From NCBI RefSeq assembly GCF_900128895.1, contig NZ_FSQW01000001.1, positions 1,736,001 to 1,800,000 of the forward strand: a stretch of 64,000 nucleotides of DNA. Reading direction: 5' to 3'. Under the pieces are notes generated by a model. That model did no database searches and was not told where the DNA came from. It saw only the letters and a program-made list of their open reading frames with translations. This document shows, one piece after another, positions 12,361 to 39,625 of the stretch (within the stretch, counting starts at the first letter, position 1; each line of letters opens with the position of its first letter). Position numbers and translations under genes: made by a program. The DNA comes from Parasphingorhabdus marina DSM 22363 (GTDB taxonomy: Bacteria > Pseudomonadota > Alphaproteobacteria > Sphingomonadales > Sphingomonadaceae).

Positions 12361-13173
12361 TTAGCTACATAGAAATCGTAAAGCACTGTCAGACCGGGCT
12401 AGGGAAACTAAGCTAAGTCCGCAAAATTTTGCGCGGGCGATTGCGAGGCTGGTTGGCACGGATATTGTCACTAGTGTTGTTGCGCCGGCAACTACGGATT
12501 TTTCTACAATCTCGTAGCTGCAGCGTGACGTGGTGAGGATGAAGCCAGATGATAGAGGTAGGTTTTCCAAACTCATTGCACCGATTAGTTTATCGAGTGC
12601 ATTGTGCCGGCCAACATCTTCTCGAACGCAGCCTATCGCTCCGTTCTCATCGACCCACGCGGCCGCATGAACTCCTCCGGTGTCAGCATTGATCTGCTGA
12701 TGATCGGTCAGCGCGGCTAGGGCGCGGAAGATATGATCATCGGCTATTGGTTGGTGATGAGGCACGGGCGGCAAAGGCCGTCCAACCACTTCTAGATTCT
12801 CAATCCCGCAAAGCCCGCAGCTACTTTCCGCAACCCGCGTTCTCGCGCGTTCAAAAACGACTTCGGCTTTCTCCGCTACAATATTTGCGCGGATGATCCA
12901 GCCCGTTTCAACGGCAGATATGTCAATCGCAGACAATTGATCGGGATGTTCAATTAGCTTTTCGCTGGTTGCAAATCCGATAACAAAATCCCGCAGGTGA
13001 CTTGGAGTTGCCATCATGACAGCATAACCAATCCCGTTAAATTCCACAGAGATTGGCGCTTCAATGGCAATTTTGCGCTGGATTTTTTCGTCAGATTTAT
13101 CATCGGAATATATCCGCCGAGCTTCTACAGTCTCGGCAGTATCACTACCTGTGGCTCGAGGACTATTCTCCAT
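12361..13173 (-). CDS. fdhD: Formate dehydrogenase accessory sulfurtransferase FdhD
   Basis: About 270 residues. FdhD proteins pass sulfur from a cysteine desulfurase to the bis-MGD cofactor, which formate dehydrogenase needs. The signature SSCGLCG at about residue 125 carries the two essential cysteines; VEFNGIGYAVMMATP and GFILTTSRCSYEIVEK are other family blocks. The ATG at 13173 is preferred: it follows the fdsD stop by 4 bases, whereas the longest frame begins at a TTG inside fdsD. It is the last gene of the fds operon. Confidence 0.9.
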   Translation of the reverse strand: MENSPRATGSDTAETVEARRIYSDDKSDEKIQRKIAIEAPISVEFNGIGYAVMMATPSHLRDFVIGFATSEKLIEHPDQLSAIDISAVETGWIIRANIVAEKAEVVFERARTRVAESSCGLCGIENLEVVGRPLPPVPHHQPIADDHIFRALAALTDHQQINADTGGVHAAAWVDENGAIGCVREDVGRHNALDKLIGAMSLENLPLSSGFILTTSRCSYEIVEKSVVAGATTLVTISVPTSLAIARAKFCGLSLVSLARSDSALRFLCS

Positions 13174-13177
13174 AAAT

Positions 13178-13408
13178 CTAGCCGTTTGACGTAGTTTTAT
13201 CAGCAACGATACGAACAGCTTCAGCCGTTACTGCTGATAGTTCTGACACCTCATTTTTTGCACATTGTACAATCCGACTTTTCATGCGTGGATCCCAATA
13301 AAGCAATATATGTTCAGCCACTTTTGTGGCGGCAGCGTCATCTGCTAATGCACCAAAATTGCGAGCAATCTGATTTGCCATATAGACAAGATGATCAGCA
13401 CTACTCAT
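13178..13408 (-). CDS. fdsD: NAD-dependent formate dehydrogenase delta subunit
   Basis: 76 residues. The sequence ADHLVYMANQIARNFGAL and the HILLYWDPRMKSRI block are typical of FdsD, a small protein needed for maturation or stability of the FdsABG complex. Its ATG overlaps the fdsA stop by 4 bases. In well-known operons the order is fdsG-B-A-C-D with fdhD-like fdsC before fdsD; here fdsD precedes fdhD. Confidence 0.9.
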   Translation of the reverse strand: MSSADHLVYMANQIARNFGALADDAAATKVAEHILLYWDPRMKSRIVQCAKNEVSELSAVTAEAVRIVADKTTSNG

Positions 13409-16269
13409 TCAACAGCCTCACCATGCGTATCGATTCTGCGCGATTTTTGGCTTCGCTCTTCATAGTTCTCTTGCCAATCTGTCGGGCCGTTAGAAGCGGT
13501 GACTTGCACTGCTGTCACTTTGTATTCCGGGCAGTTTGTCGCCCAGTCGCTATGTTCGGTCGTCACCACGTTGGCCTGTGTCGCCGGGTGGTGGAAGGTG
13601 GTGTAGACAACGCCGGGAGCCATGCGCTCGGTTATTTTTACACGCAAAGTTGTTTCGCCAGACCGGCTTGATAGCTTGGTCCAGTCGCCTTCTTGAAGGC
13701 CGCGATTTTCCGCATCGGTGGGGTGCATCTCCAGCAAATCTTCTGGGTGCCATGCGGTGTTCTCGGTACGGCGGGTTTGCGCACCGACATTATAGTGAGA
13801 CAGTATCCGCCCGGTTGTCAGCAATAGCGGGAAGCGCGGGCCGGTTTTTTCGTCAGTTGGTACATAGTTAGTGACAACAAATTGGCCTTTGCCGCGCACA
13901 AAATCATCAACATGCATTATCGGCGTGCCATTAGGAGAACTTTCGTTGACCGGCCATTGCATTGATCCTTCTTCCTGCAGACGATCAAAACTTACGCCGG
14001 CAAATGAAGGTGTCAATCGGGAAATCTCATCCATGATTTGCGAGGAGTTTTCATAATTCCAGTCCAGCCCCATTGCACGAGCTAGTTCCTGTGTAACTTC
14101 CCAATCTTCGAGTCCGTTTTTCGGGGCCATCACTTTGTTGACCATTTGGATACGCCGTTCGGCATTCGTAAATGTGCCGGTCTTCTCTAGGAAGGTTGAT
14201 CCGGGCAGGAATACATGTGCGTAATTCGCTGTCTCGTTGAGAAATAGATCATGGACGATCACGCATTCCATCGCCGCGAGCCCCGCCGAAACATGCTTGG
14301 TATTGGGGTCGGACTGCAAGATGTCTTCGCCTTGCACATAAAGCCCTTTAAACTCATTATCGACCGCTGCATCCAGCATATTGGGGATGCGCAGCCCCGG
14401 TTCTGCGTCAATCGGCACGTCCCATTCAGCCTCAAACATTGCGCGCGCGTCGGCATCAGAAACATGGCGATAGCCGGACAGTTCATGCGGGAAACTTCCC
14501 ATATCGCAGGCACCTTGCACGTTATTTTGCCCTCGCAAGGGATTTACTCCGACACCCGGCTTGCCAATATTGCCGGTCGCCATAGCCAAATTCGCAATTG
14601 CCATCACGGTGGAGCTACCTTGACTATGCTCAGTCACACCCAGGCCATAGTAGATCGCGCCATTGCCGCCCGTCGCAAACAGTCGCGCTGCGGCGCGCAG
14701 GTCTTTAGGGGATACGCCTGTTACCGGCTCTAGTGTCTCGGGGGCATGGCGATCATCTGAAACAAACGCCGCCCATTCCCTATATTCTTCCCAATTACAA
14801 CGTTCACGGATGAATTGTTCATCTGTCAGTCTCTCGGTCACAATCACATGGGCCAAGGCGGTGAGAACCGCAACATTGGTGCCAGGCTGCAGCGGCAAAT
14901 GGTGTTCAGCGTTAATATGAGGGGAGCGCACGAGATCAATTTGACGAGGATCGATAACGATTAATTTCGCCCCACCATCTCTGATATCAGCTCTTAATCG
15001 CTGTTTCATGCGGCTGCCAAAGACAGGATGCGCATCGGTTGGGTTGGCGCCTATCACCAAAATGACATCAGACTGCTCGATGCTGTCAAAATCTTGTGTA
15101 CCGGCGCTGGTACCAAAGGTCGTTTTCAGTCCATAGCCGGTGGGTGAATGGCAAACCCGCGCGCATGTATCGACATTATTGTTGCCAAATCCTGCGCGCA
15201 CCAATTTCTGGACCAGAAACACTTCCTCGTTGGTACAACGTGACGAGGTAATCCCGCCGACGCTTAGCCTGCCGTATTTTTCTTGAACACGTTTAATTTC
15301 ACTCGCCGCATAACTCAGCGCTTCGCCCCAACTTACTTCTCGCCACGGCTCACTGATGCTTTCGCGGATCATCGGTTTTGTGACCCGGTCCCTGTGATTG
15401 GCATAGCCCCATGCGAAACGCCCTTTAACGCAGCTATGGCCATGGTTGGCTTTGCCGTCTTTCCACGGCACCATGCGAACCAATTGCTCGCCCCGCATTT
15501 CAGCTCGGAAGGTGCAACCAACCCCACAATAAGCGCAGGTTGTAATTTCGCTGCGATCAGGCAAGCCAATTTCAGCAACGGATTTTTCTTGTAAAGTAGC
15601 GGTTGGACAAGCCTCCACACAGGCACCGCAAGAGACACATTCGGATGATAGAAAATCATCATCAGACAAGCCCGCAGAAATTTTTGAAGCAAAGCCGCGC
15701 CCATCCACGGTTAGCGCAAATGTCCCTTGCACTTCATCACATGCCCTTACGCAGCGCGAGCAGGCGATGCATTTGGAGGGATCAAAATCAAAATAGGGAT
15801 TAGAAGTGTCTTTCGCTTCGCCCAGATGGTTTGCGCCTTCATATCCGTAGCGCACATCGCGCAGGCCAACATTGGCTGCCTGTTCCTGCAATTCGCAATC
15901 GTTATTCGCGCTGCAAGTCAGGCAATCGAGCGGATGGTCGCTGATGTATAATTCCATCACTCCCTTGCGTAGCTTTTGCAGCAACGGCGTTTGTGTCTTT
16001 ACCACCATATTATCTTCAACTGGCGTCGTACAACTTGCAGGCGTTCCGCGCCGTCCGTAAATTTCTACCAGACAAAGCCGGCAGCTGCCAAAGCTCTTGA
16101 TATTATCAGTGGCACAGAGTTTCGGGATTCTGGTGCCCATTTCTGCCGCCGCGCGCATCACGCTGGTTCCGGCTGGCACCGTTATCTCTCTATCATCTAT
16201 GGAAACCGTTACCACGTCCTTCGATTTGGATTGAGGTGTGCCCAAATCCTTTTGTGGTTGATAGGTCAT
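13405..16269 (-). CDS. fdsA: NAD-dependent formate dehydrogenase, molybdenum catalytic alpha subunit
   Basis: 954 residues, full length. Domains in order: [2Fe-2S] ferredoxin-like region (residues 20-100, Cys in LCATDNIKSFGSCRLC), NuoG-type cluster (DHPLDCLTCSANNDC), two [4Fe-4S] ferredoxin motifs (CIACSRCVRAC and CVSCGACVEAC), then the molybdopterin part starting TTCAYCGVGC with the fifth [4Fe-4S] cluster. The molybdenum ligand Cys is in DTCARVCHSPTG. The C-terminal dinucleotide-binding domain includes LLTTGRILSHYN. It oxidises formate to CO2 in the cytoplasm and passes electrons to FdsB and NAD+. It overlaps fdsB and fdsD by 4 bases each, which implies translational coupling. Confidence 0.97.
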   Translation of the reverse strand: MTYQPQKDLGTPQSKSKDVVTVSIDDREITVPAGTSVMRAAAEMGTRIPKLCATDNIKSFGSCRLCLVEIYGRRGTPASCTTPVEDNMVVKTQTPLLQKLRKGVMELYISDHPLDCLTCSANNDCELQEQAANVGLRDVRYGYEGANHLGEAKDTSNPYFDFDPSKCIACSRCVRACDEVQGTFALTVDGRGFASKISAGLSDDDFLSSECVSCGACVEACPTATLQEKSVAEIGLPDRSEITTCAYCGVGCTFRAEMRGEQLVRMVPWKDGKANHGHSCVKGRFAWGYANHRDRVTKPMIRESISEPWREVSWGEALSYAASEIKRVQEKYGRLSVGGITSSRCTNEEVFLVQKLVRAGFGNNNVDTCARVCHSPTGYGLKTTFGTSAGTQDFDSIEQSDVILVIGANPTDAHPVFGSRMKQRLRADIRDGGAKLIVIDPRQIDLVRSPHINAEHHLPLQPGTNVAVLTALAHVIVTERLTDEQFIRERCNWEEYREWAAFVSDDRHAPETLEPVTGVSPKDLRAAARLFATGGNGAIYYGLGVTEHSQGSSTVMAIANLAMATGNIGKPGVGVNPLRGQNNVQGACDMGSFPHELSGYRHVSDADARAMFEAEWDVPIDAEPGLRIPNMLDAAVDNEFKGLYVQGEDILQSDPNTKHVSAGLAAMECVIVHDLFLNETANYAHVFLPGSTFLEKTGTFTNAERRIQMVNKVMAPKNGLEDWEVTQELARAMGLDWNYENSSQIMDEISRLTPSFAGVSFDRLQEEGSMQWPVNESSPNGTPIMHVDDFVRGKGQFVVTNYVPTDEKTGPRFPLLLTTGRILSHYNVGAQTRRTENTAWHPEDLLEMHPTDAENRGLQEGDWTKLSSRSGETTLRVKITERMAPGVVYTTFHHPATQANVVTTEHSDWATNCPEYKVTAVQVTASNGPTDWQENYEERSQKSRRIDTHGEAVE

Positions 16270-17828
16270 ACCACTTCCTTCTTCCCGGTTTGTAACAGAT
16301 TTTCACCGATATCGAAATCGTGAGGCCAGTGCTTAATCGCACTCATTACAGGATAAGGCGCAAACCCGCCCAAAGCACAGAGCGAACCGAACTCCATAGT
16401 TTCGCATAAATCGGTTAGGAGCGATATTTCATCACTGACATTGCGCGCTGTATCTTTTGGTGCATTGTGCATTTGCAACAGGCTCTCAACCCTGTCGTTC
16501 GCCTTGCGGCCGCCATTTTTGATATTGTCGAGTAGTTCAACGCCACGCACAGACCCTAACCGGCAGGGCGTACATTTTCCGCAGCTTTCGGCAGCACAAA
16601 ATTCCATTGCAAAGCGCGCTTGCCTGAGCATATCCGCACTTTCGTCAAATACGACAATGCCGCCGTGACCGATGAGCCCCCCCGCTTCACCAAAAGCTTC
16701 ATAATCAAAGGCGGTGTCAAATTGGGCAGGGGGGTGATAGGCGCCGAGCGGACCGCCGACTTGGACGGCTTTCACCGGTCTGCCGCTTTGTGTGCCACCG
16801 CCTATTGTATGGACCAGTTCACCCAGTGTTAGGCCAAAGGCGGTTTCATATAGACCAGGATATTTTAAGTTCCCTGCCAGTTGGATTGGCATTGTTCCCC
16901 GAGAGCGCCCTATGCCATAATCGGCGTAGGCCTGCGCGCCATGCGTCAGAATATAAGGGATAGCCGCTAGTGTAAGGACATTATTGACCACGGTTGGCAT
17001 ACCGAACAGGCCTTCATGCGCAGGAATAGGTGGCTTTGCGCGAACTTCGCCGCGCTTGCCTTCAAGACTATTGAGCAAGGATGTTTCTTCACCGCAAACA
17101 TATGCACCGGCACCAACTCGAACTTCAATTTCAAATGGCGCGATAATATGCCCGCAAACGGCAAGCGCAGCATTGAGCTTGGCGATCGCGTGGGGATATT
17201 CGCTGCGAACATAGATGAAGGCTTTTTTCGCTCCAACTGCGAGTCCAGCGATGGCCATGCCTTCTATGAGACAAAAGGGATCACCCTCCATGAGCATCCG
17301 GTCAGCAAAGGTTCCACTGTCGCCTTCATCTGCATTGCAGACGATATATTTTCGTTTGGAAATAGTTTCGCCGACCGTTTTCCATTTAATACCGGTGGGG
17401 AAGCCTGCACCTCCGCGTCCGCGAAGGCCGCTTTCGACAACTGTTTTGATTATCTTGTCGCTGCCTAATTCGCGAGCTGTCTTTAAGCCGGTCCAGCCAT
17501 CGCTTGCTTTATAATCAGTAAGACTGGTCGGGCGGGTTTTTCCTGCGCGCGCAAAAGTAAGGCGCTGCTGTTTTGCTATATATGGATGATTTGCAATGGG
17601 GCCGATTTTAAGCGGTGAACTTCCATCCAAAATTGCGCTAATGTCGGCGATTGTGGCTGGGCCATAGCCAATGCCGTCCACCTCAACCAGAGGCTCCAAC
17701 CAATGCATGCCCCAACTGGAAGTGCGAACGATTGCGGCGTCTGGAGCTGCTTTAGCAATTGCGGCCGCAATCTTATCTGCTCCGCAGGCAATGGCCAAAG
17801 CGTCATCTGAAATGCATATTTTTGTCAT
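16266..17828 (-). CDS. fdsB: NAD-dependent formate dehydrogenase beta subunit (NuoF-like)
   Basis: 520 residues. The N-terminal third resembles a thioredoxin-like [2Fe-2S] domain but lacks an obvious Cys set; the remainder is NuoF-like: LRGRGGAGFPTGIKWK for NADH, NADEGDSGTFADR for FMN and SCGKCTPCRLG for the [4Fe-4S] cluster. This subunit takes electrons from FdsA and reduces NAD+. Both ends overlap neighbouring genes by 4 bases, so FdsG, B and A are made together. Confidence 0.96.
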   Translation of the reverse strand: MTKICISDDALAIACGADKIAAAIAKAAPDAAIVRTSSWGMHWLEPLVEVDGIGYGPATIADISAILDGSSPLKIGPIANHPYIAKQQRLTFARAGKTRPTSLTDYKASDGWTGLKTARELGSDKIIKTVVESGLRGRGGAGFPTGIKWKTVGETISKRKYIVCNADEGDSGTFADRMLMEGDPFCLIEGMAIAGLAVGAKKAFIYVRSEYPHAIAKLNAALAVCGHIIAPFEIEVRVGAGAYVCGEETSLLNSLEGKRGEVRAKPPIPAHEGLFGMPTVVNNVLTLAAIPYILTHGAQAYADYGIGRSRGTMPIQLAGNLKYPGLYETAFGLTLGELVHTIGGGTQSGRPVKAVQVGGPLGAYHPPAQFDTAFDYEAFGEAGGLIGHGGIVVFDESADMLRQARFAMEFCAAESCGKCTPCRLGSVRGVELLDNIKNGGRKANDRVESLLQMHNAPKDTARNVSDEISLLTDLCETMEFGSLCALGGFAPYPVMSAIKHWPHDFDIGENLLQTGKKEVV

Positions 17829-18250
17829 AGGTCTTTGATCATTTGAGTGAGGGCTGGAACGTCTAAACGCGCATACACATCACCGCCTGCAATCGCGTTG
17901 GGGCCAACGCTACATAGGCCCAAACAATAGACAGTTTCTATCGCGCACTTTCCTTTGGCAAACTCGGAAATCTCAGCAATCAGCGCATCGCTTCCGCGTG
18001 CTTGGCAAGCTTCTGCGCCGCATAATTTTACGATGGGTAGGTTTGCGGGTTTTTCATGGTAATCATGATAGAAGCTCACCACACCATGTATCTCGGCTCG
18101 GCTTAAGTTGAGTGCTTTTGCCAGAGCGAGTTTCGCGTCGTCATTAACATAACCAAATTCTGCCTGAATATCATTCAGGATCGGTAATAATGGGCCTTCG
18201 CGCCATTTATGGGACGCGATGATTTCGGCTAGGCGGTTTGATAGGGTCAA
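17825..18250 (-). CDS. fdsG: NAD-dependent formate dehydrogenase gamma subunit (NuoE-like)
   Basis: 141 residues, thioredoxin-like [2Fe-2S] protein. Cluster Cys are in LCGAEACQA and YCLGLC. The start is a TTG at 18250 whose bases overlap the TGA of a 39-codon upstream reading frame (TTGA), so its translation probably depends on ribosomes ending there. The TTG gives the expected MTLSNRLAEII N-terminus. FdsG joins FdsB to carry electrons. The LysR gene at 18465 diverges from it and may control the operon, perhaps in response to formate. Confidence 0.94.
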   Translation of the reverse strand: MTLSNRLAEIIASHKWREGPLLPILNDIQAEFGYVNDDAKLALAKALNLSRAEIHGVVSFYHDYHEKPANLPIVKLCGAEACQARGSDALIAEISEFAKGKCAIETVYCLGLCSVGPNAIAGGDVYARLDVPALTQMIKDL

Positions 18251-18366: not shown

Positions 18367-18446
18367 CGGTAAAATTCTCCTGTTTTCCGATTTCTATAGT
18401 ATTGTTACCTTAGAGTGATAAATAGATATTTTGGTAAAACATAATT

Positions 18447-18464
18447 ACATTACAGGAATAATGT
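18447..18464. promoter_or_regulatory. Palindrome ACATTA-N6-TAATGT over the ribosome site of the LysR gene
   Basis: Perfect inverted arms ACATTA (18447-18452) and TAATGT (18459-18464) around CAGGAA, which is also the Shine-Dalgarno of the LysR gene starting at 18465. A related TTGCATTAATGTA stands before the paralogous LysR gene at 21034-21939. This could be an autoregulatory operator. Only the symmetry is seen; binding is inferred. Confidence 0.4.
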
Positions 18465-19334
18465 ATGTCTGCTTGGGATGGGGTTGAGGAGTTTGTCGCT
18501 GTCGTCGAAGCTGGCAGCTTTGTTGGTGCTGCAAGAGCATTGGGCTTTTCCAATGCACATATTAGCCGTTCGATTGCGCGGTTGGAGCGAAAATTAGACG
18601 CTCGCCTTTTTGACCGTACGACGCGATCACTTCGATTGACCAATGCAGGCCGCGCGCTGGTAGATCCGTTTCGGCGATTAGTGGAAGATCGAGACGACGC
18701 TTTTGCTTTAATGACTACCGATGGCGCACCAAAAGGCGAATTGCGGATAACTTGCTCCGCTTCACTTGGTCACAAATTTGTAATTCCTATCGTCCGAAAA
18801 TACGCGCAAAATTTTGAAAGCCTGTCTATTTGGATCGACCTCACAAATAGGCTTGTCGATTTGATTGCAGAGGGGTTTGATATGGCAATTCGAACTGGAC
18901 ATCTCCCGGATTCCAAATTGATAGCGACAAGAATAGGAAGCCGCTCCTTGGTTACATTCGCATCGAAAAGCTATTTAGATAAATACGGCTATCCGAAATC
19001 TGTCAGTGATTTAATCGAGCATAATTGTGTGCGTGGGACCAGTTCCGTGTGGCATTTTAAGAATGAAGTTGGTGAAGAAGTAGATTTTCATCCAAAAGGT
19101 AGATGGAGATGTAACAGCGGTGAGGGTGTGCTGGAGGCGGTCACGGCTGATATGGGTATTGGTCAGCTGCCAGGCCACTATTTGGATGACATGCTTCGCG
19201 ATGGAAAAATACAATCGATCCTTGATAAGTACAGTATTGAAGATGAACCGATCTGGGCGATCTATCCGAATAGAAAGCATGTGCTACCGAGAGTTAAGTC
19301 ATTGATTGAAGTTTTGAAAATGGAGATTCTATAG
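18465..19334 (+). CDS. LysR-family regulator, divergent from fds operon
   Basis: 289 residues. Helix-turn-helix at about 5-62 (EEFVAVVEAGSFVGAARAL, HISRSIARLERKLDARLF), effector domain from about 90. It belongs to the same subgroup as the protein at 21034-21939: shared landmarks are NRLVD or NRVLD, DMAIRTG or DIAIRTG, GRWR-NSG and WAIYPNRKHVLP or WAVYPQQRHVLP. The two paralogues flank the Rieske oxygenase gene, one divergent from formate dehydrogenase and one divergent from formaldehyde dehydrogenase, suggesting joint control of the demethylation and C1-oxidation genes. Confidence 0.9.
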   Translation: MSAWDGVEEFVAVVEAGSFVGAARALGFSNAHISRSIARLERKLDARLFDRTTRSLRLTNAGRALVDPFRRLVEDRDDAFALMTTDGAPKGELRITCSASLGHKFVIPIVRKYAQNFESLSIWIDLTNRLVDLIAEGFDMAIRTGHLPDSKLIATRIGSRSLVTFASKSYLDKYGYPKSVSDLIEHNCVRGTSSVWHFKNEVGEEVDFHPKGRWRCNSGEGVLEAVTADMGIGQLPGHYLDDMLRDGKIQSILDKYSIEDEPIWAIYPNRKHVLPRVKSLIEVLKMEIL

Positions 19335-19693
19335 AGTTGACAGCTGGCTTTCTGGCTGAGAGCCAGCATCGGCATAGTATGGCAGGTCATCGACTTTAGG
19401 CATGATATTCTCTTGGTGTCTTTCTTTTGCGGTGGCTCGGCCAGGCGCATAAACTCCGGCGATTGAGCCCGGGCATGAGAAGTTGGAGACGGGGCGGAAG
19501 CTAGGCAAACAGGGTGTTTTTGAGAACTATAGTCCTGCTCTGTATCTCAGCAATCCGATAAGGCTTTTCAAATACGCCCATGACTAGCTGAAGATCGAGC
19601 CCATTGTGTATCGGTATCGATTTGTGATCGACAAGGTATTGGCTTCTAAAATCGCAACACCACAAATTTTGTGCAAAATAGGAGAGGAGCACA
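19335..19693. other. Leader region upstream of the Rieske oxygenase
   Basis: 359 bases between the LysR gene and a small ORF. It holds the first copy of a duplicated leader block (19591-19643). A minus-strand 22-codon frame (MPKVDDLPYYADAGS) at 19335-19403 is too short to call. A strong purine-rich ribosome site GGAGAGGAG (19681-19689) closes it. No gene is supported. Confidence 0.4.
19591..19643 (+). repeat. Duplicated leader block, copy 1 (before Rieske oxygenase)
   Basis: The 33 bases at 19611-19643 match 35195-35227 with one difference (GATCGACAAGG against GATCAACAAGG); the 20 bases before match in 13 positions. Copy 1 precedes the Rieske oxygenase unit, copy 2 the TfdB-like hydroxylase. 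In one frame both encode EPI-x-x-RYRFVI-x-KVLAS, so the block may be a gene remnant rather than an operator. Confidence 0.6.
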
Positions 19694-19825
19694 ATGGCGG
19701 TGATCATTGCACTTGATTTATTAGCAGTAGGCCCAGAACCAACGCGTTCAGATGCTGCCCTTGGCCTGTTCCGAAACGGTGTTGATACGCTAGTCAATCA
19801 ACGAAAAATGGATCCACTATCATGA
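19694..19825 (+). CDS. 43-residue ORF coupled to the Rieske oxygenase
   Basis: ATG at 19694 with GGAGAGGAG 4 bases upstream; the product MAVIIALDLLAVGPEPTRSD... is 43 residues with a short hydrophobic start. Its TGA overlaps the ATG of the oxygenase gene (ATGA), and the oxygenase has no ribosome site of its own other than within this frame, so the arrangement suggests translational coupling. No family recognised; it may be a leader peptide or a small protein. Confidence 0.5.
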   Translation: MAVIIALDLLAVGPEPTRSDAALGLFRNGVDTLVNQRKMDPLS

Positions 19826-21939: not shown

Positions 21940-22043
21940 GATTATCCCATTATTGCATTAATGTATTTCAAAAATCGCACTTTATTTCATTTATGACATT
22001 AGTCTAGGACTAGAAACACTGATTATGAACCATGAGAACAATT

Positions 22044-24416: not shown

Positions 24417-24428
24417 GTGGCGTGGTCG

Positions 24429-30125: not shown

Positions 30126-30126
30126 A

Positions 30127-32047: not shown

Positions 32048-32578
32048 TCAGATTGCGGAGCCCCGGGCAGGGTAATTTCGCGCCAACACGGCATCTAAGC
32101 CTTCCAAGACGTCCGTAGCATGAATTCGGTTGAACGGATTGGACCCGTACACCACCGAGTAAATTTCGCCTGTTTTCGGAAAGACCATGATTGTAGCAGG
32201 TTCGCTAAATCGTCGAGGTTCGCACTCATTTATGGCATCGGTCAAATATAAGCCCCAGGCTCTCGCCTGTTCTTCACTGAGTTCATATCCAATCTCCATT
32301 CCTTCCAAGCCCCATTCGGCGACTGCCCGTTCTGCGCGATCTTGCGCATCCATAGAGATTGCCACACAAGCAACCCCCCTATCTTCAAAACGCGCCAACT
32401 TGGTTTTCAGATCAAGAATATGAAGCTTGCACCGGGGACAGTGCCAACCGCGATAAAAATCGATTATAACGAAATTTTCGGATTCAGTATCGGCAAGGCT
32501 CCAATTGCCTCCACCAACTTTTGGCACGATAAGATCTGGAGCAATCTGCCCAGGAAGCAATGTGGAGTGCATGGTCAT
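32048..32578 (-). CDS. Redoxin-family (AhpC/TSA-like) protein
   Basis: 176 residues with a thioredoxin fold. The peroxidatic position reads FYRGWHCPRCK, a CxxC rather than the lone Cys of many peroxiredoxins. AISMDAQDRAERAVAEW and ATIMVFPKTGEIYSVVYG fit the AhpC/TSA and redoxin domains. It may remove peroxide or reduce reactive quinones made by the oxygenases. It lies 91 bases after the cycloisomerase gene on the same strand and before the YciI gene. Confidence 0.82.
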   Translation of the reverse strand: MTMHSTLLPGQIAPDLIVPKVGGGNWSLADTESENFVIIDFYRGWHCPRCKLHILDLKTKLARFEDRGVACVAISMDAQDRAERAVAEWGLEGMEIGYELSEEQARAWGLYLTDAINECEPRRFSEPATIMVFPKTGEIYSVVYGSNPFNRIHATDVLEGLDAVLARNYPARGSAI

Positions 32579-32669: not shown

Positions 32670-33821
32670 TCAACCTGACGCTGCATGCACAGTATAGTTG
32701 CGATCTCGTCGCAAAGCGCTGACTTTGTCTTCGTCAACTTCGACAGCCAATCCCACTCCATCTTCGAGCTGGAGTTCAAAATTCTCATATCTTGCGGGCC
32801 TAACTGCAATGTCTTCTGCAATCAAACAGGGACCAGATAATTCCCCTCCATAAGGTAATGATTCTAAAGTGGCCGCTAGCTGCATACCTGCTGCGGTGCC
32901 AATTGAGCACTCTAAAAATGTTCCCATATAAATAGAGATTCCACTCGACAGAGCAATGTCAGCAATTCTCCGTGAATTCCAAAGCCCGGCTGATTTCATA
33001 ATCTTCAGGGAGACTAGGTCACAGGCATGGAGTTGTGCTATGCGGAGCATATCTTGAACGGTGCAAACGCTCTCGTCCATCATGATGGCTGAGTTGGACC
33101 TTTCCGTTATGCGCGCCGTACCGTCAAAATTCCATCGAGCCACTGGCTGCTCGATCATATCGATGCCAGCATTTTCCATTTTGGGTATTGCCCATTTGCA
33201 CGTTGCCTCATCCCAACTTTCATTTGGATCAGCTCTCACCTTGGCCTTGCCTTCTAAGCTACGCGCTACTGTACAAGCCCGCGCGACATCCTGTTCGGGA
33301 TCAAGAAATCCCATCTTCAATTTGAACAGGTTGAACCGGCCGCTGGCAATCTGACTTTCAGCTTCTTCTATTTCAGCCTCGGCCAAACCAGTGGCTAATG
33401 GCCATGAACATTGCAATGAACTTCGCTGCTTGCCGCCTAATATGTTGCACACAGGAATATTTGCGATCTTGCCTTGCAGATCAAGAAAAGCCATTTCAAC
33501 ACCGGCCTTGGCAAATGCATTTCCAAAAAGAACCCTGTCGACTTTTCGAACAATTCCTCGAATATTGAAGACATCCTCTCCAACAATTTGAGGAGTAATG
33601 TGATCGTCAATCATCAATTTGATTGATTCAACGCTTTCTCCAGCCCACCAGGGCCCGGATGGAGTGCAGCACTCACCAATACCTTCCAAACCATCCTCAG
33701 TAGTAATACGGATTAAAACGACCGCAGTGGTCCGTGCTCCAACTGCTGCAAATTTTTGGATCCTGTGCAGGGGAAGGTCTATGATTATAGTCTCAACAGA
33801 TCTTATTTTATAGTTGCTCAT
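32670..33821 (-). CDS. Muconate / chloromuconate cycloisomerase
   Basis: 383 residues, enolase superfamily. The catalytic K-x-K is in LFKLKMG, metal ligands in RADPNESWDE, MIEQP and MMDES, and the opposite Lys in VSLKIMKSAG. The start at 33821 has GGAGG 4 bases upstream; the longer frame to 33890 runs into the operators. It closes (chloro)muconate to (chloro)muconolactone, the step between the dioxygenase at 26048 and the dienelactone hydrolase at 26880. No muconolactone isomerase or enol-lactone hydrolase is present, so the chlorinated route is favoured. Confidence 0.88.
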   Translation of the reverse strand: MSNYKIRSVETIIIDLPLHRIQKFAAVGARTTAVVLIRITTEDGLEGIGECCTPSGPWWAGESVESIKLMIDDHITPQIVGEDVFNIRGIVRKVDRVLFGNAFAKAGVEMAFLDLQGKIANIPVCNILGGKQRSSLQCSWPLATGLAEAEIEEAESQIASGRFNLFKLKMGFLDPEQDVARACTVARSLEGKAKVRADPNESWDEATCKWAIPKMENAGIDMIEQPVARWNFDGTARITERSNSAIMMDESVCTVQDMLRIAQLHACDLVSLKIMKSAGLWNSRRIADIALSSGISIYMGTFLECSIGTAAGMQLAATLESLPYGGELSGPCLIAEDIAVRPARYENFELQLEDGVGLAVEVDEDKVSALRRDRNYTVHAASG

Positions 33822-34000
33822 AGCGCCTCCAAAAATTGCGCGAACTTCCATTGTAGCCTGATACCATCTGCATTTTTGGTAAAATACCATCTGTCGCCCA
33901 TGTGGATACCGAATACGTATTAATAGCGAAGGATACCTATTTTATATTGGCAAGGCCTAATCCATACCATATTGGTATATCTAGATTGGAGTTTGGTTAC
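33822..34000. promoter_or_regulatory. Divergent control region with ATAC-N7-GTAT operators
   Basis: Two perfect dyads are present: ATACCGAATACGTAT (33906-33920) and ATACCATATTGGTAT (33964-33978), both ATAC-N7-GTAT, the recognition pattern known for BenM/CatM-type LysR regulators. Extra half sites ATACCA at 33861 and 33885 and TGGTA at 33877 lie nearer the cycloisomerase. The centres of the two perfect sites are 58 bases apart. The LysR gene starts at 34001. Confidence 0.7.
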
Positions 34001-34903
34001 ATGGAACTACGGCAATTGAGATACTTTGTGGCTGTGGCCGAAGAGCGAAACTTTGGTTTAGCCGCTCAGAAATTGAATGTCTCACAACCCCCGATAACTC
34101 GCCAAATCAAAAAACTAGAAGATGAGATGAGTGTCGTTTTGTTCAAGCGAACGAGCAAAGGCTCCGAGTTGACATCTGCAGGGCAGGCGTTTTTGGAAGA
34201 TGCACGGAAGATTTTGAATCAGGTGAAAATCGGAGTCGAGCGAGGTCAGGCAGCGCAAAGAGGCGAGATTGGAACTTTAGAAATCGGCTATTTTGGAACG
34301 CCATCATATCTTTTGCTTCCCAAGATATTGAAGCTTTTTAAAGGCGAAAATCCTGGTCTGGAACTTTATCTCCATAGACTATCAAAAAAGGAACAGATGG
34401 ATGCGCTCAAGACCGGCCAAATTCATATTGGCTTTGGACGTTATTACAATCAGGAGCATGATCTGTGCGTAGAGCATATTTTCAATGAAGGAATGGCGCT
34501 TTGTCTTCCAGCGGACTTTTCAATGGAGATTGATAATTCTAACTGGCATTCGGTTTTCAGCCAAATACCACTCATATTGTTTCCGGCTTCTGGCCGTCCC
34601 AATTTTGCTGATGAGATTTTGGCAATTTTGAAGAGAGAGGGTGTTGATCCCGAAGTGGCAAATGTTTCAGAAGACATTCGGGCGGGCCTGATGCAGGTCG
34701 CTATTGGCACTGGTGCAATGATAGTTCCCAATTCAGTTACGGAAATGCGCTGGTTTGGTGTGCGATTCGTCAAACTCGCGGCACTTTCAGATGACTGTCC
34801 AATCAGTATTATTTATCGCAAATCGGATACCAGTCCACATTTGAGAAAACTTATTCATTCAATCCAACACTTTCAGGAATCTTCCGCAAAAATTGAAATC
34901 TAG
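34001..34903 (+). CDS. LysR-family regulator of the CatR/TfdR/ClcR group
   Basis: 300 residues. MELRQLRYFVAVAEERNFG, VSQPPITRQIKKLE and VVLFKRTSKGSELTSAG are the characteristic N-terminus of chlorocatechol and catechol regulators; the effector domain follows from about 90. Such proteins bind muconate or chloromuconate and activate ring-cleavage genes. It diverges from the cycloisomerase gene over the ATAC-N7-GTAT sites. The ATG at 34001 gives the family start; an upstream frame to 33902 would run through the operators. Confidence 0.92.
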   Translation: MELRQLRYFVAVAEERNFGLAAQKLNVSQPPITRQIKKLEDEMSVVLFKRTSKGSELTSAGQAFLEDARKILNQVKIGVERGQAAQRGEIGTLEIGYFGTPSYLLLPKILKLFKGENPGLELYLHRLSKKEQMDALKTGQIHIGFGRYYNQEHDLCVEHIFNEGMALCLPADFSMEIDNSNWHSVFSQIPLILFPASGRPNFADEILAILKREGVDPEVANVSEDIRAGLMQVAIGTGAMIVPNSVTEMRWFGVRFVKLAALSDDCPISIIYRKSDTSPHLRKLIHSIQHFQESSAKIEI

Positions 34904-35293
34904 GTAAGGCTGAGATCGAAAGGACCAGCGCCACACTGAATCTCCTGTCCTTATAGAATTTCACTGTCCAAGTTTGTAGCGCTGAGTCACCCGACCGATC
35001 CTGGCGATTGCGATTCAGTTTCGATACGCTCTGTTCCGGAACAGGGCGACCCTCTTCGTGCCCCTGCAAATTGAGCGTCAGCTTTCCGAAGTATCCGACT
35101 ATCTGATCTGCTTAATGCCAATTGCGTGCCACACGTCATTCCTTCTCATAGCGATTATCCAGCACTCTAACTTTCAAGTCGAACCGATTGGGTTTCGGTA
35201 TCGATTTGTGATCAACAAGGTATTGGCGTCGGCAAACGGAAGTTCCCAATTAGGTAGCGATAAATAAGAGCAACTAGGAACAAGAGGACGATG
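34904..35293. other. Leader region before the TfdB-like hydroxylase
   Basis: 390 bases. A plus-strand frame of 69 codons (35058-35267) includes the second copy of the duplicated leader block and could be the remnant of a small gene. No intact gene is supported. AAGAGGA at 35282-35288 serves the hydroxylase. Confidence 0.4.
35175..35227 (+). repeat. Duplicated leader block, copy 2 (before TfdB-like hydroxylase)
   Basis: Matches the block at 19591-19643; the last 33 bases differ at one position. The sequence ends 66 bases before the hydroxylase start. Both copies lie shortly before an oxygenase gene. Whether it is a regulator site or a shared gene fragment cannot be settled from sequence. Confidence 0.6.
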
Positions 35294-37102
35294 ATGGCGG
35301 CGACCGTGGAGACAGATGTGCTTGTCGTAGGCACAGGGCCCGCAGGTTCTGCTGCCGCCTTAAGTCTTGCCAGAAACGGCGTGAACGCTTTGGTCATTAA
35401 CAAATTTGGATGGACGGCTCGGACCCCGCGGGCGCATATAACCAATCCAAGGACGATGGAAGTTCTGCACGACTTGGGCGTCTATGATGAAGCGCTAAAG
35501 CATTCATTCTCCAAAGAGTTTATGGGCGAAAATACCTTTTGCACAAGTCTTGCCGGCTTAGAGGTAGGTCGTATTCGAACTTGGGGTACGTGTCCTGACC
35601 AGGCCCATAATTACGCAATCGCCAGCCCAGAAGAGAATTGTGACATTACCCAGAATTATATGGAGCAGGTTTTGATCGGTTCGGCGGCCCATGCCGGGGC
35701 GAAAGTGATGTTTCATACCGAGTTGCTGGATTACAAACAGGATAGCGAAGGTGTTTCTGCCAGGTTGAAAAACCGTCTTACCGGCGAAGAATTTGCCGTG
35801 CTTTGCAAATATCTGATTGGCGCTGACGGAGCGAATTCGACTGTCGCAAAGATCGCCGATCTTCCGCTTGAGGGTGTGCAGGGCAAGGAAGGTTCGATGA
35901 ATATCGTATTCGACGCTGACCTGTCCCGATTTGTTGAGCACCGCCCTAGCGTTTTATACTGGATAATGCAGGATGGGTCCGACGTTGGTGGACTTGGCAT
36001 GGGCGTGGTTCGTATGGTTGAGCCATGGAACCGCTGGCTTGCGATCTGGGGTTATGATTTGGCTGCTGGACAGCCCGACGTAGACGAAGCGAAAGCAATC
36101 AAAGTTGTTCACAATCTAATTGGCGACAATAGTGTTCCTGTATCAATTGACTCGATATCGTTTTGGACTGTCAATGAAGTATATGCCACAAAGCTGAGCA
36201 AAGGCCGAGTATTTTGCATGGGCGATGCTGTTCATCGCCACCCACCCACTAAGGGGCTTGGATCAAACACATCCATCCAGGATGCTTTCAATCTGTCTTG
36301 GAAAATTTCGATGGTCCTAAAGGGGCAGGCCGGGCCTGGATTGCTTTCCAGCTATTCGGAAGAGCGAGCGCCCGTTGCCAAGCAAATTGTGACCGGAGCC
36401 AACCGTTCGATCTCTCGGTTTTACGAGATTATGGGGGCGCTTGGCCTAGATAAAGCAGAGACACCCGATCAGATGCGCAAGGCCATGATGTCGATGGGGG
36501 ATGACTCCGAAGAAGGCAAAACGAAGCGTGCAGCGCTGGATAAGGCGATTTATGGCACGCGTGATGTTTTCGATAACCCTGGTATAGAGATCCAGCATCG
36601 CTACAGTTCTTCAGCCGTTGCAGACGATGGTAGTGAAGATCCTGGATATAAAGGCGATCCAGAAGTCTTTGTCGAACAAACAACCTATCCGGGTGCCCGC
36701 TTGCCGCATGCATGGATCACGGTGAATGGGATACGCCAATCGCTTCTCTACCTATGTGGTGGAACGAAATTCACTATCTTGACTGGCGTTTCTGGCTCCG
36801 GCTGGATTGGTGCTGCAAAGGCTGTTCACGACGCTCTGGGCGTGCAGATCAATGTCATTCAGATCGGCGCGATGCGAGAGGTTCAAGACATTTATGGAGA
36901 ATGGTCGCGCGTTCGCGAAATTGATGAATCTGGCGCGGTCGTTGTACGCCCAGATCATCATATTGCCTGGCGGGCGCAGGGTTGGTCAGCGGATGGCCCG
37001 GCGGCGCTAATGGATGCCATGAAAGCTATTCTAAGCGCGGAAGACGGCCCAGCAGCCGAGGCTTCGGATATTGAGGAAAAAGAGGGGGAGGTTGCCGTTT
37101 AG
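35294..37102 (+). CDS. TfdB-like phenol / chlorophenol monooxygenase (FAD)
   Basis: 602 residues. FAD motif VVGTGPAGSAAALSLARNG, DG motif GADGANSTVA and GD motif FCMGDAVHRHPPTKGLG are in order, with a C-terminal thioredoxin-like dimerisation domain. The blocks TPRAHITNPRTME, MGENTFC and RIRTWGTC are those of 2,4-dichlorophenol 6-monooxygenase (TfdB) and its kin, which turn phenols into catechols with NADPH and O2. The ATG at 35294 is preferred to 35291 for spacing from AAGAGGA. It would supply the catechol for the dioxygenase at 26048. A resorcinol or hydroquinone hydroxylase is a possible alternative. Confidence 0.87.
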   Translation: MAATVETDVLVVGTGPAGSAAALSLARNGVNALVINKFGWTARTPRAHITNPRTMEVLHDLGVYDEALKHSFSKEFMGENTFCTSLAGLEVGRIRTWGTCPDQAHNYAIASPEENCDITQNYMEQVLIGSAAHAGAKVMFHTELLDYKQDSEGVSARLKNRLTGEEFAVLCKYLIGADGANSTVAKIADLPLEGVQGKEGSMNIVFDADLSRFVEHRPSVLYWIMQDGSDVGGLGMGVVRMVEPWNRWLAIWGYDLAAGQPDVDEAKAIKVVHNLIGDNSVPVSIDSISFWTVNEVYATKLSKGRVFCMGDAVHRHPPTKGLGSNTSIQDAFNLSWKISMVLKGQAGPGLLSSYSEERAPVAKQIVTGANRSISRFYEIMGALGLDKAETPDQMRKAMMSMGDDSEEGKTKRAALDKAIYGTRDVFDNPGIEIQHRYSSSAVADDGSEDPGYKGDPEVFVEQTTYPGARLPHAWITVNGIRQSLLYLCGGTKFTILTGVSGSGWIGAAKAVHDALGVQINVIQIGAMREVQDIYGEWSRVREIDESGAVVVRPDHHIAWRAQGWSADGPAALMDAMKAILSAEDGPAAEASDIEEKEGEVAV

Positions 37103-37258
37103 GCGAATGCAGCATGCCATCTGAGGTTCCGTCAACAAATGTAAATGCGTTTCTGAAGACGAAGCACTGCTGCTGACATACCGGGAGTTACCTCGGTCAA
37201 AAACAGAAAGAAATTCGAAAACAACTAGAGTTGAAAAAAATAGGACCGGGAGGATATT

Positions 37259-39625
37259 ATGAAGAAGTTTTCAAAATTCGTTTTGCTGACCAGCGCAAGT
37301 GCTATTTGTGCATCAATACCAATTTACCCTGCAACAGCGAATGCTCAACTGAATGATACTAGCCAACAAGAGGTCGCGGGGCAGGAAGATGACAATACAA
37401 TCATCGTCACAGCCACACGGCGACCAGAAAGCATTCAGGATGTGCCGGTATCGGTGAGTTCGTTCGGATCGGAGGAAATTTCGGATACCGGATCAATAGA
37501 TATTGCAGACATTTCTACATATGTTCCCAATTTTGAGTTTTCTGATGCGAGCATCTTGCCCAATCTATATGTGCGCGGAATTGGTTCAGGTACGACCCAT
37601 TCTATTGAACAATCCGTTGGCCGTTTCATCGACGAAGTCTATATCGGCCGTGCTGCAATCAACCTCCATCCCCTATTCGACGTGGGGAACGTAGAGGTAT
37701 TGCGCGGACCGCAAGGGACACTGTTCGGTAAAAACACTATTGCTGGCGCGGTCATCATCAACACGAAGGATCCAACCAACAGTTTCGAGGGCGGTTTTGA
37801 CGCTTACATAAGCGATTACAGCACGGTTGGCGGCTCTTGGGGCGGCGAAGCATTTCTTTCTGGACCGATAGGCGACAGCGCAGGCTTCCGTATAGCGGCT
37901 CTTTACCGCGATCGGGATGGATTTATAGAAAACCGGCTCCCGGGCCCCGATGGCGGCACTCGCGAAGATTTTGGACTTAGAGGAAAGCTGCAATTCGACA
38001 TTGGCCCCAATACGACAATTGATTTGAAAGGCGAATTTCTAACCTTCGACGAAGAAGGGCAGACGCCATCCGAAGTTACAAGCTCGATTTTCCCTGGAGG
38101 CCCATTCGCCGGACAGCCAGTACCAGAATCTTTCTTCCAACGTTTCTCGCCAAATTTCTCTTTTGATAGGGACTGGAAGAGTGATTATGATTGCACAGCT
38201 GTCTTGAACGGTAGAACATTCTGCCCTAACCGCAACCAAGACACTTACAACGCAACGCTTGAAATCAATCATGAATTTGAGGGTCTTGGAACTCTCACAT
38301 CGGTGAGTGCCTATCAATCTGTGGAATTCTTCCATCAGTTTCTTGCAATTGAGGGTGGTGTGACAGGTGGCGGATTACGCGCTACCCGCAACGAACAATA
38401 TGAAGGTTTTACGCAGGAATTGCGTTTGACATCAGAAGAATTCGAGACATTTGATTTTATCGTCGGCGGCTATTTTGAAACCAGCGAAGTCACCAGATTA
38501 CAGTTTGACGATTTTGATGTAGCGACCTTCTTCGGAGGTGGCCCGGTAAATTCACTTATTGAAGATTGGTCTCAGGATACGAAGACCGCCGCTTTGTTCG
38601 GACAAGTTCGTTGGCGCTTCAGTGACGAATGGTCGGCCATCTTTGGCGGCCGCTGGTCCTATGAAGAAAAAGACTTCTCTTTCTTCCGGCGCGTTGGCGC
38701 AGGAGGGGCGGATCCTGCAGTACTACGTGCAGATCCCGGCACAGGCCCGAATGACTTTATCTCTGATTTGAATCGCGATGAGAATCGCTTTACTCCGTCA
38801 GTTACCCTGCGTTGGGAACCCAATCCTGATCTGACAATATTTGCCTCTGCATCACAAGGGCACAAAACCGGTGGATTCTCTGACCGACCCGAGGAAAACG
38901 TTGCCGGCAATTTGGAAATCAGCGAGTTTTCTAATGAGTTAAACACTGCGTTTGAACTTGGTGCCAAGGGTGTGTTCGGGCCACTTCAAGTGAATGCTGC
39001 AGCCTTTTACATGCTCGTAGAAGACTTGCAGGTTGCACGTGCCCTTCCTGGCCAGTTTACCACCCAATTCCAGGTTCAAAATGCTGCTGAGGCAACCGTT
39101 TGGGGCGTCGAATTAGATGCTACTGTGGAACTCTCGGAAAACTGGACCTTGGGCGGAAATGTTGCTTACACCAACGCCCGCTATGATGATTTTCCTGGTG
39201 CGTCGGAAAATTGCCCAACTATAGGAGGGGCATTGGAGCCAGATCCTTTGACAGGTGACATTCTGTGTAACTATGCCGGGCTTCCATTGATCTTTGCACC
39301 CGACTGGAAGGGTGCCGCTTATATCGCACTCGATCAGCCTGATTTCCTGGGTGAGTGGGATTTGGGATTCCGTGCAGACGTCAACTTTTCGAGCGAGTAT
39401 TTCGTGGAACTGGAATATGTGGATGTGCTGCGCCAGGGATCCTATGCAACTTTCAACGCCAATGTGAGCCTCACCACGCCGGGCGATGAACTCACAATCT
39501 CATTGATTGGCAAGAACCTGACGGAAGAGCATGTTCTGGCCTGGGGTTTGCAAGCCGGTCCTGGAACGTTCGTTGCACCCAACGAGCCCAGGGAGATGAT
39601 CCTCCGGTTGAGCTATAGGTTTTAG
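37259..39625 (+). CDS. TonB-dependent outer-membrane receptor
   Basis: 788 residues. Signal peptide (KKFSKFVLLTSASAICAS to NAQ), TonB box DNTIIVTATRR, plug domain with VPVSVSSFG and VEVLRGPQGTLFGKNTIAG, and a beta-barrel ending in Phe (RLSYRF). Such receptors import scarce or poorly soluble compounds. It stands 156 bases downstream of the hydroxylase on the same strand, so uptake of the aromatic substrate is a reasonable guess. A good ribosome site (GGGAGG) precedes the ATG. Confidence 0.93.
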   Translation: MKKFSKFVLLTSASAICASIPIYPATANAQLNDTSQQEVAGQEDDNTIIVTATRRPESIQDVPVSVSSFGSEEISDTGSIDIADISTYVPNFEFSDASILPNLYVRGIGSGTTHSIEQSVGRFIDEVYIGRAAINLHPLFDVGNVEVLRGPQGTLFGKNTIAGAVIINTKDPTNSFEGGFDAYISDYSTVGGSWGGEAFLSGPIGDSAGFRIAALYRDRDGFIENRLPGPDGGTREDFGLRGKLQFDIGPNTTIDLKGEFLTFDEEGQTPSEVTSSIFPGGPFAGQPVPESFFQRFSPNFSFDRDWKSDYDCTAVLNGRTFCPNRNQDTYNATLEINHEFEGLGTLTSVSAYQSVEFFHQFLAIEGGVTGGGLRATRNEQYEGFTQELRLTSEEFETFDFIVGGYFETSEVTRLQFDDFDVATFFGGGPVNSLIEDWSQDTKTAALFGQVRWRFSDEWSAIFGGRWSYEEKDFSFFRRVGAGGADPAVLRADPGTGPNDFISDLNRDENRFTPSVTLRWEPNPDLTIFASASQGHKTGGFSDRPEENVAGNLEISEFSNELNTAFELGAKGVFGPLQVNAAAFYMLVEDLQVARALPGQFTTQFQVQNAAEATVWGVELDATVELSENWTLGGNVAYTNARYDDFPGASENCPTIGGALEPDPLTGDILCNYAGLPLIFAPDWKGAAYIALDQPDFLGEWDLGFRADVNFSSEYFVELEYVDVLRQGSYATFNANVSLTTPGDELTISLIGKNLTEEHVLAWGLQAGPGTFVAPNEPREMILRLSYRF

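Follow-up and report, generated by a model that had tools for sequence, protein, structure and literature searches.

The window analysed here is a stretch of 64,000 nucleotides of the Parasphingorhabdus marina DSM 22363 genome (C2:1736001-1800000; two contigs, 3.55 Mb). Positions 12361-39625 of the window hold a gene cluster which, with moderate confidence, we assign to growth on a methyl aryl ether that is converted to a halocatechol; the simplest substrate of this kind would be a haloanisole, for instance 2,4-dihaloanisole. The cluster combines a putative Rieske O-demethylase with genes for formaldehyde removal and with a halophenol module, comprising a phenol hydroxylase and the enzymes of halocatechol cleavage (Table 1). 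The strongest new evidence is regulatory: a type of operator shared by the demethylase and halophenol genes, and a decayed copy of the hydroxylase promoter located before the demethylase gene. The initial annotation, which had proposed one complete route for mineralising a methoxylated aromatic, contained neither of these features.

An unguided repeat search returned a 63-nt repeat, one copy of which precedes the Rieske gene (19595) and the other the hydroxylase gene (35179); the two are 83% identical. At E <= 0.01, the whole genome holds these two copies only, the second with an E of 1.5e-12. In a gapped alignment covering the promoter, the ribosome-binding stretch and about 40 codons, the two upstream regions are identical at 183 of 241 ungapped columns, with a score of 146, whereas none of 297 random stretches scored above 51. 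The 43-residue frame contained in the copy is 53% identical over 34 residues to the hydroxylase N-terminus (E 2.5e-5), and 50% identical to that of the hydroxylase of another genome, G108 (E 1.2e-4). The operator part of the relic is kept better (88% over 52 nt) than the coding part. With the same settings, the relic gave lower scores against the hydroxylase 5' regions of G108, G375 and locus L062 (74, 62 and 35), the identity over the loosely gapped columns not being lower (161/234, 174/230 and 68/94), and no other compared locus matched the upstream repeat at E <= 0.05. Based on these comparisons, the most likely source of the relic is the genome's own lineage. Promoter capture thus seems to have brought the demethylase into the halophenol regulon, since the stretch before its gene duplicates, in decayed form, the promoter and initial codons of the hydroxylase. 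The duplication itself is plain from the alignment; as regards its direction and the order of events, the simplest history would be that the halophenol pathway came first and that the demethylase was then placed behind a copied hydroxylase promoter.

The repeat contains a LysR-type layout, AT-N9-GTAT-N18-GTAT, which recurs in front of the ring-cleavage operon and of the cycloisomerase gene. In its strict form (ending GTATTNG), this pattern has three matches in the whole genome, before the Rieske gene, the ring-cleavage operon and the hydroxylase gene, and none in a reversed control. The looser form has five matches in the genome, four of them in the cluster, again with none in the reversed control; resampled versions of the window, 100 in all, averaged 0.02 matches and never had more than one. 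As to spacing, GTAT-N18-GTATT occurs four times in the window and each of 23 other spacings zero to two times. Outside the cluster, a scan of named genomes with the dioxygenase as single query gave 33 chlorocatechol loci, several of which end at contig ends, and 31 of these could be used (two were dropped because their upstream region was too short). The looser pattern is found within 300 bp upstream of the dioxygenase gene in 14 of the 31, compared with 75 of 3300 stretches taken at random from these loci. The layout resembles the ATAC-N7-GTAT sites of the CatM/BenM regulators, and this form, with at most one mismatch, occurs once before the ring-cleavage operon and three times before the cycloisomerase gene. 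LysR3, whose NCBIfam matches (AlsR with 210 bits; HcaR; CatM and BenM, these last two with 157 bits each) are all under cut-off, is the natural candidate regulator for the shared operators. Judged by these sites, the Rieske gene appears to be linked to the halophenol module by regulation, beyond mere position.

All the enzymes and the receptor that the initial annotation had listed within 27 kb are present as intact open frames, with matching Pfam or NCBIfam families. The gene content and order, like the operators and the relic, are read directly from the DNA. A minus-strand block at the left (FdhD-FdsA-FdsB-FdsG) is followed by LysR1 and the Rieske oxygenase on the plus strand and by LysR2 on the minus strand. 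A plus-strand run then comprises FrmA, the ferredoxin reductase, FghA, the ferredoxin, the dioxygenase, the dienelactone hydrolase, the maleylacetate reductase, PcaF, PcaI and PcaJ. In the right part, the peroxiredoxin-like and cycloisomerase genes lie on the minus strand, and LysR3, the phenol hydroxylase and the TonB receptor on the plus strand. Two details of the initial annotation had to be corrected: the reductase lies between FrmA and FghA, and the hydroxylase, named as TfdB-like, is about as near to HbpA as to TfdB.

The Rieske protein exhibits a Rieske domain (PF00355, 82.4 bits) and a VanA_C domain (PF19112, 112.5 bits). Its nearest relative of solved structure is the dicamba O-demethylase DdmC (156 bits), and NdmA and NdmB are also among its relatives. 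Aligned with DdmC, it keeps C49, H51, C68, H71, H162, H167 and D321, as well as the bridging D159, residues which we take to be the metal-binding set from their positions in DdmC. In contrast, N230, H251 and W285 of DdmC, which are presumably its dicamba-contact residues, are replaced by F, N and A in the sequence alignment. As these three positions are replaced, a dicamba-like benzoate, one of the substrates initially suggested, is disfavoured, and the protein is probably not a dicamba monooxygenase proper; the replaced residues would be compatible with a neutral anisole. The predicted structure is poor (four input sequences), with a mean predicted local distance difference test score (pLDDT) of 44 and residues 125-372 below 50. 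In samples of 397 genomes of the family (E <= 1e-20), 385 of the class and 398 of the phylum (both E <= 1e-50), the best matches that span most of the protein are 36-39% identical to it, and values of up to 49% are confined to roughly its first 170 residues. Plasmids gave 633 matches, none with at least 60% identity, and the best 20 of the 633 show 31.6-35.6%. The protein does not appear to be a LigX-type demethylase, as PF19301 (LigXa_C) is not matched in it. None of the five PF00848 matches of the genome, PF00848 being, we assume, the catalytic domain of CadA-type oxygenases, lies inside the window. A VanB-type partner was not found either: the neighbouring reductase is of the Pyr_redox_2/Reductase_C type with a separate ferredoxin, the rest of the genome not having been searched for VanB. 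In the dicamba system DdmABC, the partners of the oxygenase are an adrenodoxin-type ferredoxin and a flavin reductase; the cluster resembles it in its VanA_C-type oxygenase, ferredoxin type and reductase, and differs in the three contacts.

The ferredoxin reductase, whose nearest NCBIfam models are HcaD and AndAa (both under cut-off), is separated from FrmA and FghA by gaps of only 15 and 0 bases, and the ferredoxin comes afterwards. Because of these short gaps, the Rieske-suited reductase and the formaldehyde genes FrmA and FghA look like one transcription unit, in which electron transport and formaldehyde removal would be co-transcribed. LysR2 probably controls this FrmA-reductase-FghA-ferredoxin operon separately. 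The loss of the methyl group as formaldehyde appears to be the most economical reading of a Rieske oxygenase, ferredoxin and reductase found together with FrmA, FghA and Fds.

In the halophenol module, the hydroxylase is about equally near to HbpA (2-hydroxybiphenyl 3-monooxygenase, 598 bits) and to JMP134 TfdB (54.5% identity; 592 bits, obtained with another program), and its naming as strictly TfdB was rejected for this reason. The three nearest solved structures of the dioxygenase are chlorocatechol dioxygenases, and four residues which we take to be its iron ligands are kept. Named maleylacetate reductases are the second and third nearest structures of the maleylacetate reductase (350 and 347 bits), the nearest (358 bits) being named only as an iron-containing alcohol dehydrogenase; no maleylacetate reductase model is found among its NCBIfam matches. 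The dienelactone hydrolase is assigned by Pfam, with no NCBIfam match and one weak PDB match. With the cycloisomerase, these enzymes appear to form the modified ortho set of the tfd/clc type. The TonB receptor was rejected as anisole-specific, since it accompanies the hydroxylase in loci without a demethylase.

All chemical steps of the proposed pathway are predicted from family function. The Rieske oxygenase, fed by the reductase and the ferredoxin, would hydroxylate the O-methyl group, giving formaldehyde and a halophenol. FrmA, FghA and Fds would convert formaldehyde to formate and then CO2, with a yield of two NADH able to repay the oxygenase. The hydroxylase would add an ortho hydroxyl group to the halophenol, and the resulting halocatechol would be converted to halomuconate, dienelactone, maleylacetate and 3-oxoadipate by the chlorocatechol dioxygenase, cycloisomerase, dienelactone hydrolase and maleylacetate reductase, with loss of the halide. 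PcaIJ and PcaF would then give succinyl-CoA and acetyl-CoA. 2,4-Dihaloanisole would fit the specificity expected of each enzyme. The operators being observed, LysR3 would be the regulator and (halo)muconate the inducer by which the hydroxylase, the ring-cleavage operon, the cycloisomerase and the demethylase are induced through one operator type. The demethylase would have joined this older regulon on landing behind the duplicated hydroxylase promoter and 5' end. The modules thus form one predicted route, as initially proposed and now backed by the shared operators, in which the halogen and the substrate stay putative.

Both halves of the cluster are of known, recurring kinds. It is their join that appears to be new, since the halocatechol and formaldehyde halves each recur separately, and the full join was found in no other locus examined. 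A dioxygenase match at E <= 1e-30 is present in 16 of the 397 family genomes, that of P. marina included, and the lower genes recur with 51-83% identity in G108, G236, G248 and G375 (the latter without a PcaF match). In G108 and G375, these genes are accompanied by those of the hydroxylase (77-78%) and of the receptor (69-74%), and the roughly 20 kb read on each side yielded no match to the Rieske protein, FrmA or FghA, whereas G236 and G248 instead exhibit a 31%-identical Rieske match beside the lower genes. At E <= 1e-60, the hydroxylase is found in three of the 32 genus genomes: that of P. marina, G375 (77%) and G402 (43%). The 33 named loci include Erythrobacter, Hyphomonadaceae, Henriciella, Eilatimonas and Kordiimonas, as well as soil genera with less similar genes. 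None of the 33 has a FrmA or FghA match. Six of them (L063, L064, L068, L069, L085 and L087) match the Rieske protein of the window, and the VanA_C domain is absent from the three of these Rieske matches that were submitted to Pfam.

On the formaldehyde side, FdsA relatives with 82-87% identity are present in six of the 31 other genus members, and two more have 40-42%; Fds was therefore rejected as a special feature of the cluster. G401 and G404, of the same genus, carry FrmA-FghA-FdsG-FdsB-FdsA-FdhD contiguously, and the 20 kb read there contain no Rieske match. The enzymes of this genus run (L126, L127) are the same as those of the cluster, where, in contrast, they are split by LysR1-Rieske-LysR2 and the reductase is inserted between FrmA and FghA. 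In G144, FrmA, FghA, a ferredoxin and a reductase adjoin a 33%-identical Rieske gene, with no halocatechol match in 19.5 kb. A megablast for close plasmid relatives of the cluster gave only short FrmA matches (75-79%) in eight records.

Several loci carry the lower module with a different Rieske gene, as frames of about 460-520 residues: G236 (L050), G248 (L054), L063, L064 and L087, the last with only the dioxygenase and a cycloisomerase of this module. Near the different Rieske gene, L064 and L087 encode a Fer2/FAD/NAD reductase and L064, in addition, an AraC-type regulator; G236 and G248 look alike by eye. These loci may represent another, putative upper pathway. A second dioxygenase of G236 lies in L117 (G236:C1:1717001-1737000), where it forms a divergent set with hydrolase and maleylacetate reductase genes; PF00848 Rieske genes are found upstream of it, FrmA (82%) about 3 kb downstream and, by eye, transposase-like frames in the locus. 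L117 is possibly an independent join of formaldehyde and halocatechol genes. In G375, of the same genus as P. marina, the halophenol cluster adjoins a tyrosine integrase (by eye) and a tRNA-Glu gene (L057, 4154-5613), which suggests a genomic island in that genome.

The initial statement that no described cluster joins these modules holds for the full join in the loci searched, but parts of it have precedents: in print, Tn6228 of Sphingomonas sp. ERG5 (PMC3877037) and the lower module of the sponge-associated Hyphomonadaceae SP12AHP1 (PMC7313196), and, in the genomes compared, the formaldehyde operon elsewhere in the genus. Tn6228, on plasmid pCADAB1, is the nearest described design. According to excerpts of its report, it comprises cadRABCD, tfdBCDEFKR and pcaIJF and thus shares with the cluster an aryl-ether-cleaving Rieske oxygenase with ferredoxin and reductase, TonB receptors, the full chlorocatechol ortho route and PcaIJF (PMC3877037). 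The TfdB-type hydroxylase of ERG5 is 55% identical to that of the cluster. In contrast to the DdmC/VanA-type oxygenase of the cluster, CadAB is an alpha/beta two-subunit phenoxyacetate oxygenase, and the gene order differs. The by-product of CadAB is glyoxylate, and malate synthase G is annotated in the 34 kb of ERG5 viewed, with no FrmA or FghA. By analogy, the disposal of the by-product may have been swapped, from glyoxylate (malate synthase G) in ERG5 to formaldehyde in the cluster. Excerpts on SP12AHP1 describe a 3,5-dichlorocatechol cluster, also in Altererythrobacter marensis, for which the authors infer horizontal transfer and raise brominated substrates (PMC7313196). Its lower module (L063) is the same as that of the cluster; the 16.2 kb up to the contig end contain no FrmA, FghA or hydroxylase match, and the only Rieske match is 27% identical. 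Bradyrhizobium sp. RD5-C2 (L085, 16151-19298) carries genes for a ferredoxin, a Rieske protein and a reductase next to those for a hydroxylase, a dioxygenase, a maleylacetate reductase and a cycloisomerase; an operator of the same type precedes the Rieske gene (at 16478, after the ferredoxin). Its Rieske protein is of the LigXa_C type, and its 20.7-kb locus has no FrmA or FghA match.

A number of observations weigh against the assignment to a haloanisole. The Rieske protein has no close relative in the samples compared, so that O-demethylation is only its candidate reaction, and enzymes with a VanA_C domain include methyl hydroxylases and N-demethylases. The best model of the dioxygenase, TIGR02465, is matched with 302.8 bits, under the equivalog cut-off of 359.25. 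Chloromuconate and muconate enzymes score almost alike against the cycloisomerase, which exhibits the Glu of the muconate enzyme where the two chloromuconate enzymes printed for comparison have Asp, so that a halogenated substrate is not forced. The genome holds another FrmA (79%) at C1:1558962 with an FghA-like gene (61%) beside it, and both Fds and FrmA-FghA occur in the genus without the Rieske gene of the window nearby. As to the operators, the pattern was drawn up after the cluster sites had been seen, which makes the counts post hoc and is why a control outside the cluster matters; in that control, 17 of the 31 loci are without the looser pattern. The looser paired form was adopted after ATAC-N7-GTAT, with at most one mismatch, had proved absent before the Rieske and hydroxylase genes. 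Neither form is found before the FrmA operon, so the shared operator lends no support to co-induction of formaldehyde removal. Lastly, the ERG5 authors, in the excerpts of their report, tie malate synthase G to the tricarboxylic acid and glyoxylate cycles and not to by-product removal (PMC3877037).

Four other explanations have to be considered; they overlap with one another, and their probabilities need not sum to one. The substrate could be a non-halogenated methoxy aromatic (guaiacol, anisole or a lignin fragment), the chlorocatechol-type enzymes then acting on catechol or methoxycatechol. The dioxygenase score and the muconate-like features of the cycloisomerase, including its Glu, are in line with this, but the maleylacetate reductase and dienelactone hydrolase are enzymes of the halogenated branch, the scan of the proteins in 12361-39625 revealed neither a muconolactone isomerase nor an enol-lactone hydrolase, and the same set recurs with a hydroxylase of the TfdB/HbpA group in several genera; we consider a non-halogenated substrate unlikely. 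Quite unlikely, too, is that the Rieske enzyme catalyses another reaction, such as N-demethylation, the opening of a methylenedioxy ring or the hydroxylation of a methyl group, with the formaldehyde genes serving that reaction. Its relatives include the N-demethylases NdmA and NdmB and presumably the methyl hydroxylase TsaM, and none that is characterised is close; nevertheless, its best solved relative is an O-demethylase, and the co-regulated hydroxylase needs a phenol, the product of O-demethylation, for which an amine would not serve. Berberine demethylenase, considered as a model for the methylenedioxy case, was rejected, as it is reported to be folate-dependent and not a Rieske enzyme.

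That the C1/demethylase and halophenol modules are unrelated neighbours with no single pathway would agree with the finding of each alone elsewhere and with the FrmA operon having its own LysR and no shared operator. The Rieske gene, however, bears the same operator and the duplicated hydroxylase 5' end, which makes this explanation very improbable. Hardly credible is a Rieske gene that is silent, the repeat before it being the relic of a replaced second hydroxylase gene: only the first 40 codons or so of the copy survive, but the operator part is better kept than the coding part, and the Rieske frame is intact, with all its metal ligands and an ATGA overlap with the relic.

If the haloanisole assignment is retained, bromine deserves at least equal weight with chlorine, and the initial wording "probably chlorinated" was not borne out, as no feature tested separates the two halogens. 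This weight comes from the marine genera among the carriers of the lower module and from the natural bromoanisoles of the Baltic. Several of the named carrier genera are marine. One published study places 2,4,6-tribromoanisole and 2,4-dibromoanisole among the halogenated compounds found to be most abundant in water of the Gulf of Bothnia (PMC4447703), and trichloroanisole is described as tainting drinking water (PMC10535749). Tentatively, the cluster might encode the bacterial mineralisation of natural bromoanisoles (2,4-dibromoanisole and related compounds); a DdmC-type demethylase would then have been captured behind the duplicated hydroxylase promoter, entering a bromophenol regulon in one step, and the relic leader would still couple its translation. 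No gene cluster for the aerobic breakdown of haloanisoles, chloroguaiacols or chloroveratroles was found in open-access titles and abstract openings, a partial coverage with subscription journals mostly outside it. Haloanisoles are widespread, and the locus names every gene of a candidate degradation route. It would also exemplify the recruitment of a new first step to an existing pathway, through a copied promoter and a 5' coding relic.

Table 1. Features of the cluster, with positions in the window.
Feature	Position	Strand	Basis or remark
FdhD, sulfurtransferase for formate dehydrogenase	12361..13206	-	TIGR00129 over cut-off
FdsA-type NAD-linked molybdenum formate dehydrogenase, catalytic subunit	13405..16269	-	TIGR01591, 909 bits, over cut-off
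FdsB, NuoF-like subunit	16266..17828	-	Complex1_51K
FdsG, NuoE-like subunit	17825..18250	-	NF004638 best, under cut-off
LysR1 regulator	18465..19334	+	Pfam
Decayed copy of hydroxylase promoter and first ~40 codons	19558..19813	+	aligns to 35148-35411
LysR-type operator before demethylase	19603..19642	+	one of three strict genome matches
Small frame of 43 residues, relic of hydroxylase N-terminus	19694..19825	+	stop overlaps Rieske start (ATGA)
Rieske oxygenase, DdmC/VanA type, proposed O-demethylase	19822..20940	+	Rieske and VanA_C
LysR2 regulator, divergent from FrmA operon	21034..21939	-	Pfam
FrmA, S-(hydroxymethyl)glutathione dehydrogenase, second copy	22032..23150	+	TIGR02818 over cut-off
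Ferredoxin reductase, proposed Rieske partner	23166..24416	+	Pyr_redox_2 and Reductase_C
FghA, S-formylglutathione hydrolase	24417..25265	+	TIGR02821 over cut-off
Adrenodoxin-type [2Fe-2S] ferredoxin	25390..25710	+	Fer2, ISC-ferredoxin-like; C-x5-C-x2-C at residue 40
LysR-type operator before ring-cleavage operon	25950..25989	+	one of three strict genome matches
Chlorocatechol-type 1,2-dioxygenase	26048..26827	+	TIGR02465 best, under cut-off; PDB relatives
Dienelactone hydrolase family	26880..27575	+	PF01738
Maleylacetate reductase	27572..28654	+	family and PDB relatives
PcaF, 3-oxoadipyl-CoA thiolase	28630..29862	+	TIGR02430 over cut-off; start uncertain
PcaI, CoA-transferase subunit A	30097..30828	+	TIGR02429 over cut-off
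PcaJ, CoA-transferase subunit B	30834..31460	+	TIGR02428 over cut-off
Peroxiredoxin-like protein	32048..32578	-	PF00578; travels with lower module in relatives
Muconate/chloromuconate cycloisomerase	32670..33821	-	TIGR02534 over cut-off; likely true start 33821, first ATG 33890
LysR-type operator before cycloisomerase	33884..33920	-	looser form
LysR3, proposed master regulator	34001..34903	+	NCBIfam matches under cut-off; likely true start 34001
LysR-type operator before hydroxylase	35187..35226	+	one of three strict genome matches
FAD phenol ortho-hydroxylase, TfdB/HbpA group	35291..37102	+	family; comparison with HbpA and TfdB
TonB-dependent receptor	37259..39625	+	family; 69-74% relatives in hydroxylase loci of G108, G375 and L062

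With regard to composition, the region has a G+C content of 0.49. The G+C content at third codon positions (GC3) is 0.42-0.53 in the cluster genes (0.31 in the ferredoxin gene), compared with 0.56-0.67 in flanking genes at some distance from the boundary. Next to the right end of the cluster (40613-42699) lie low-GC3 genes for a DUF5681 protein and a ParB-like N6/N4 DNA methylase, as in mobile islands. The low GC3 of the cluster genes and the similar GC3 of these two neighbours suggest an acquired region. At the left end, a zinc-alcohol-dehydrogenase-like frame (11613-12308) that matches C-terminal domain families only adjoins FdhD; its GC3 is low like that of the cluster, and it is possibly a truncated gene. 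The peroxiredoxin-like gene accompanies the halocatechol module in several genera, where it is located directly before PcaI or after PcaI/PcaJ.

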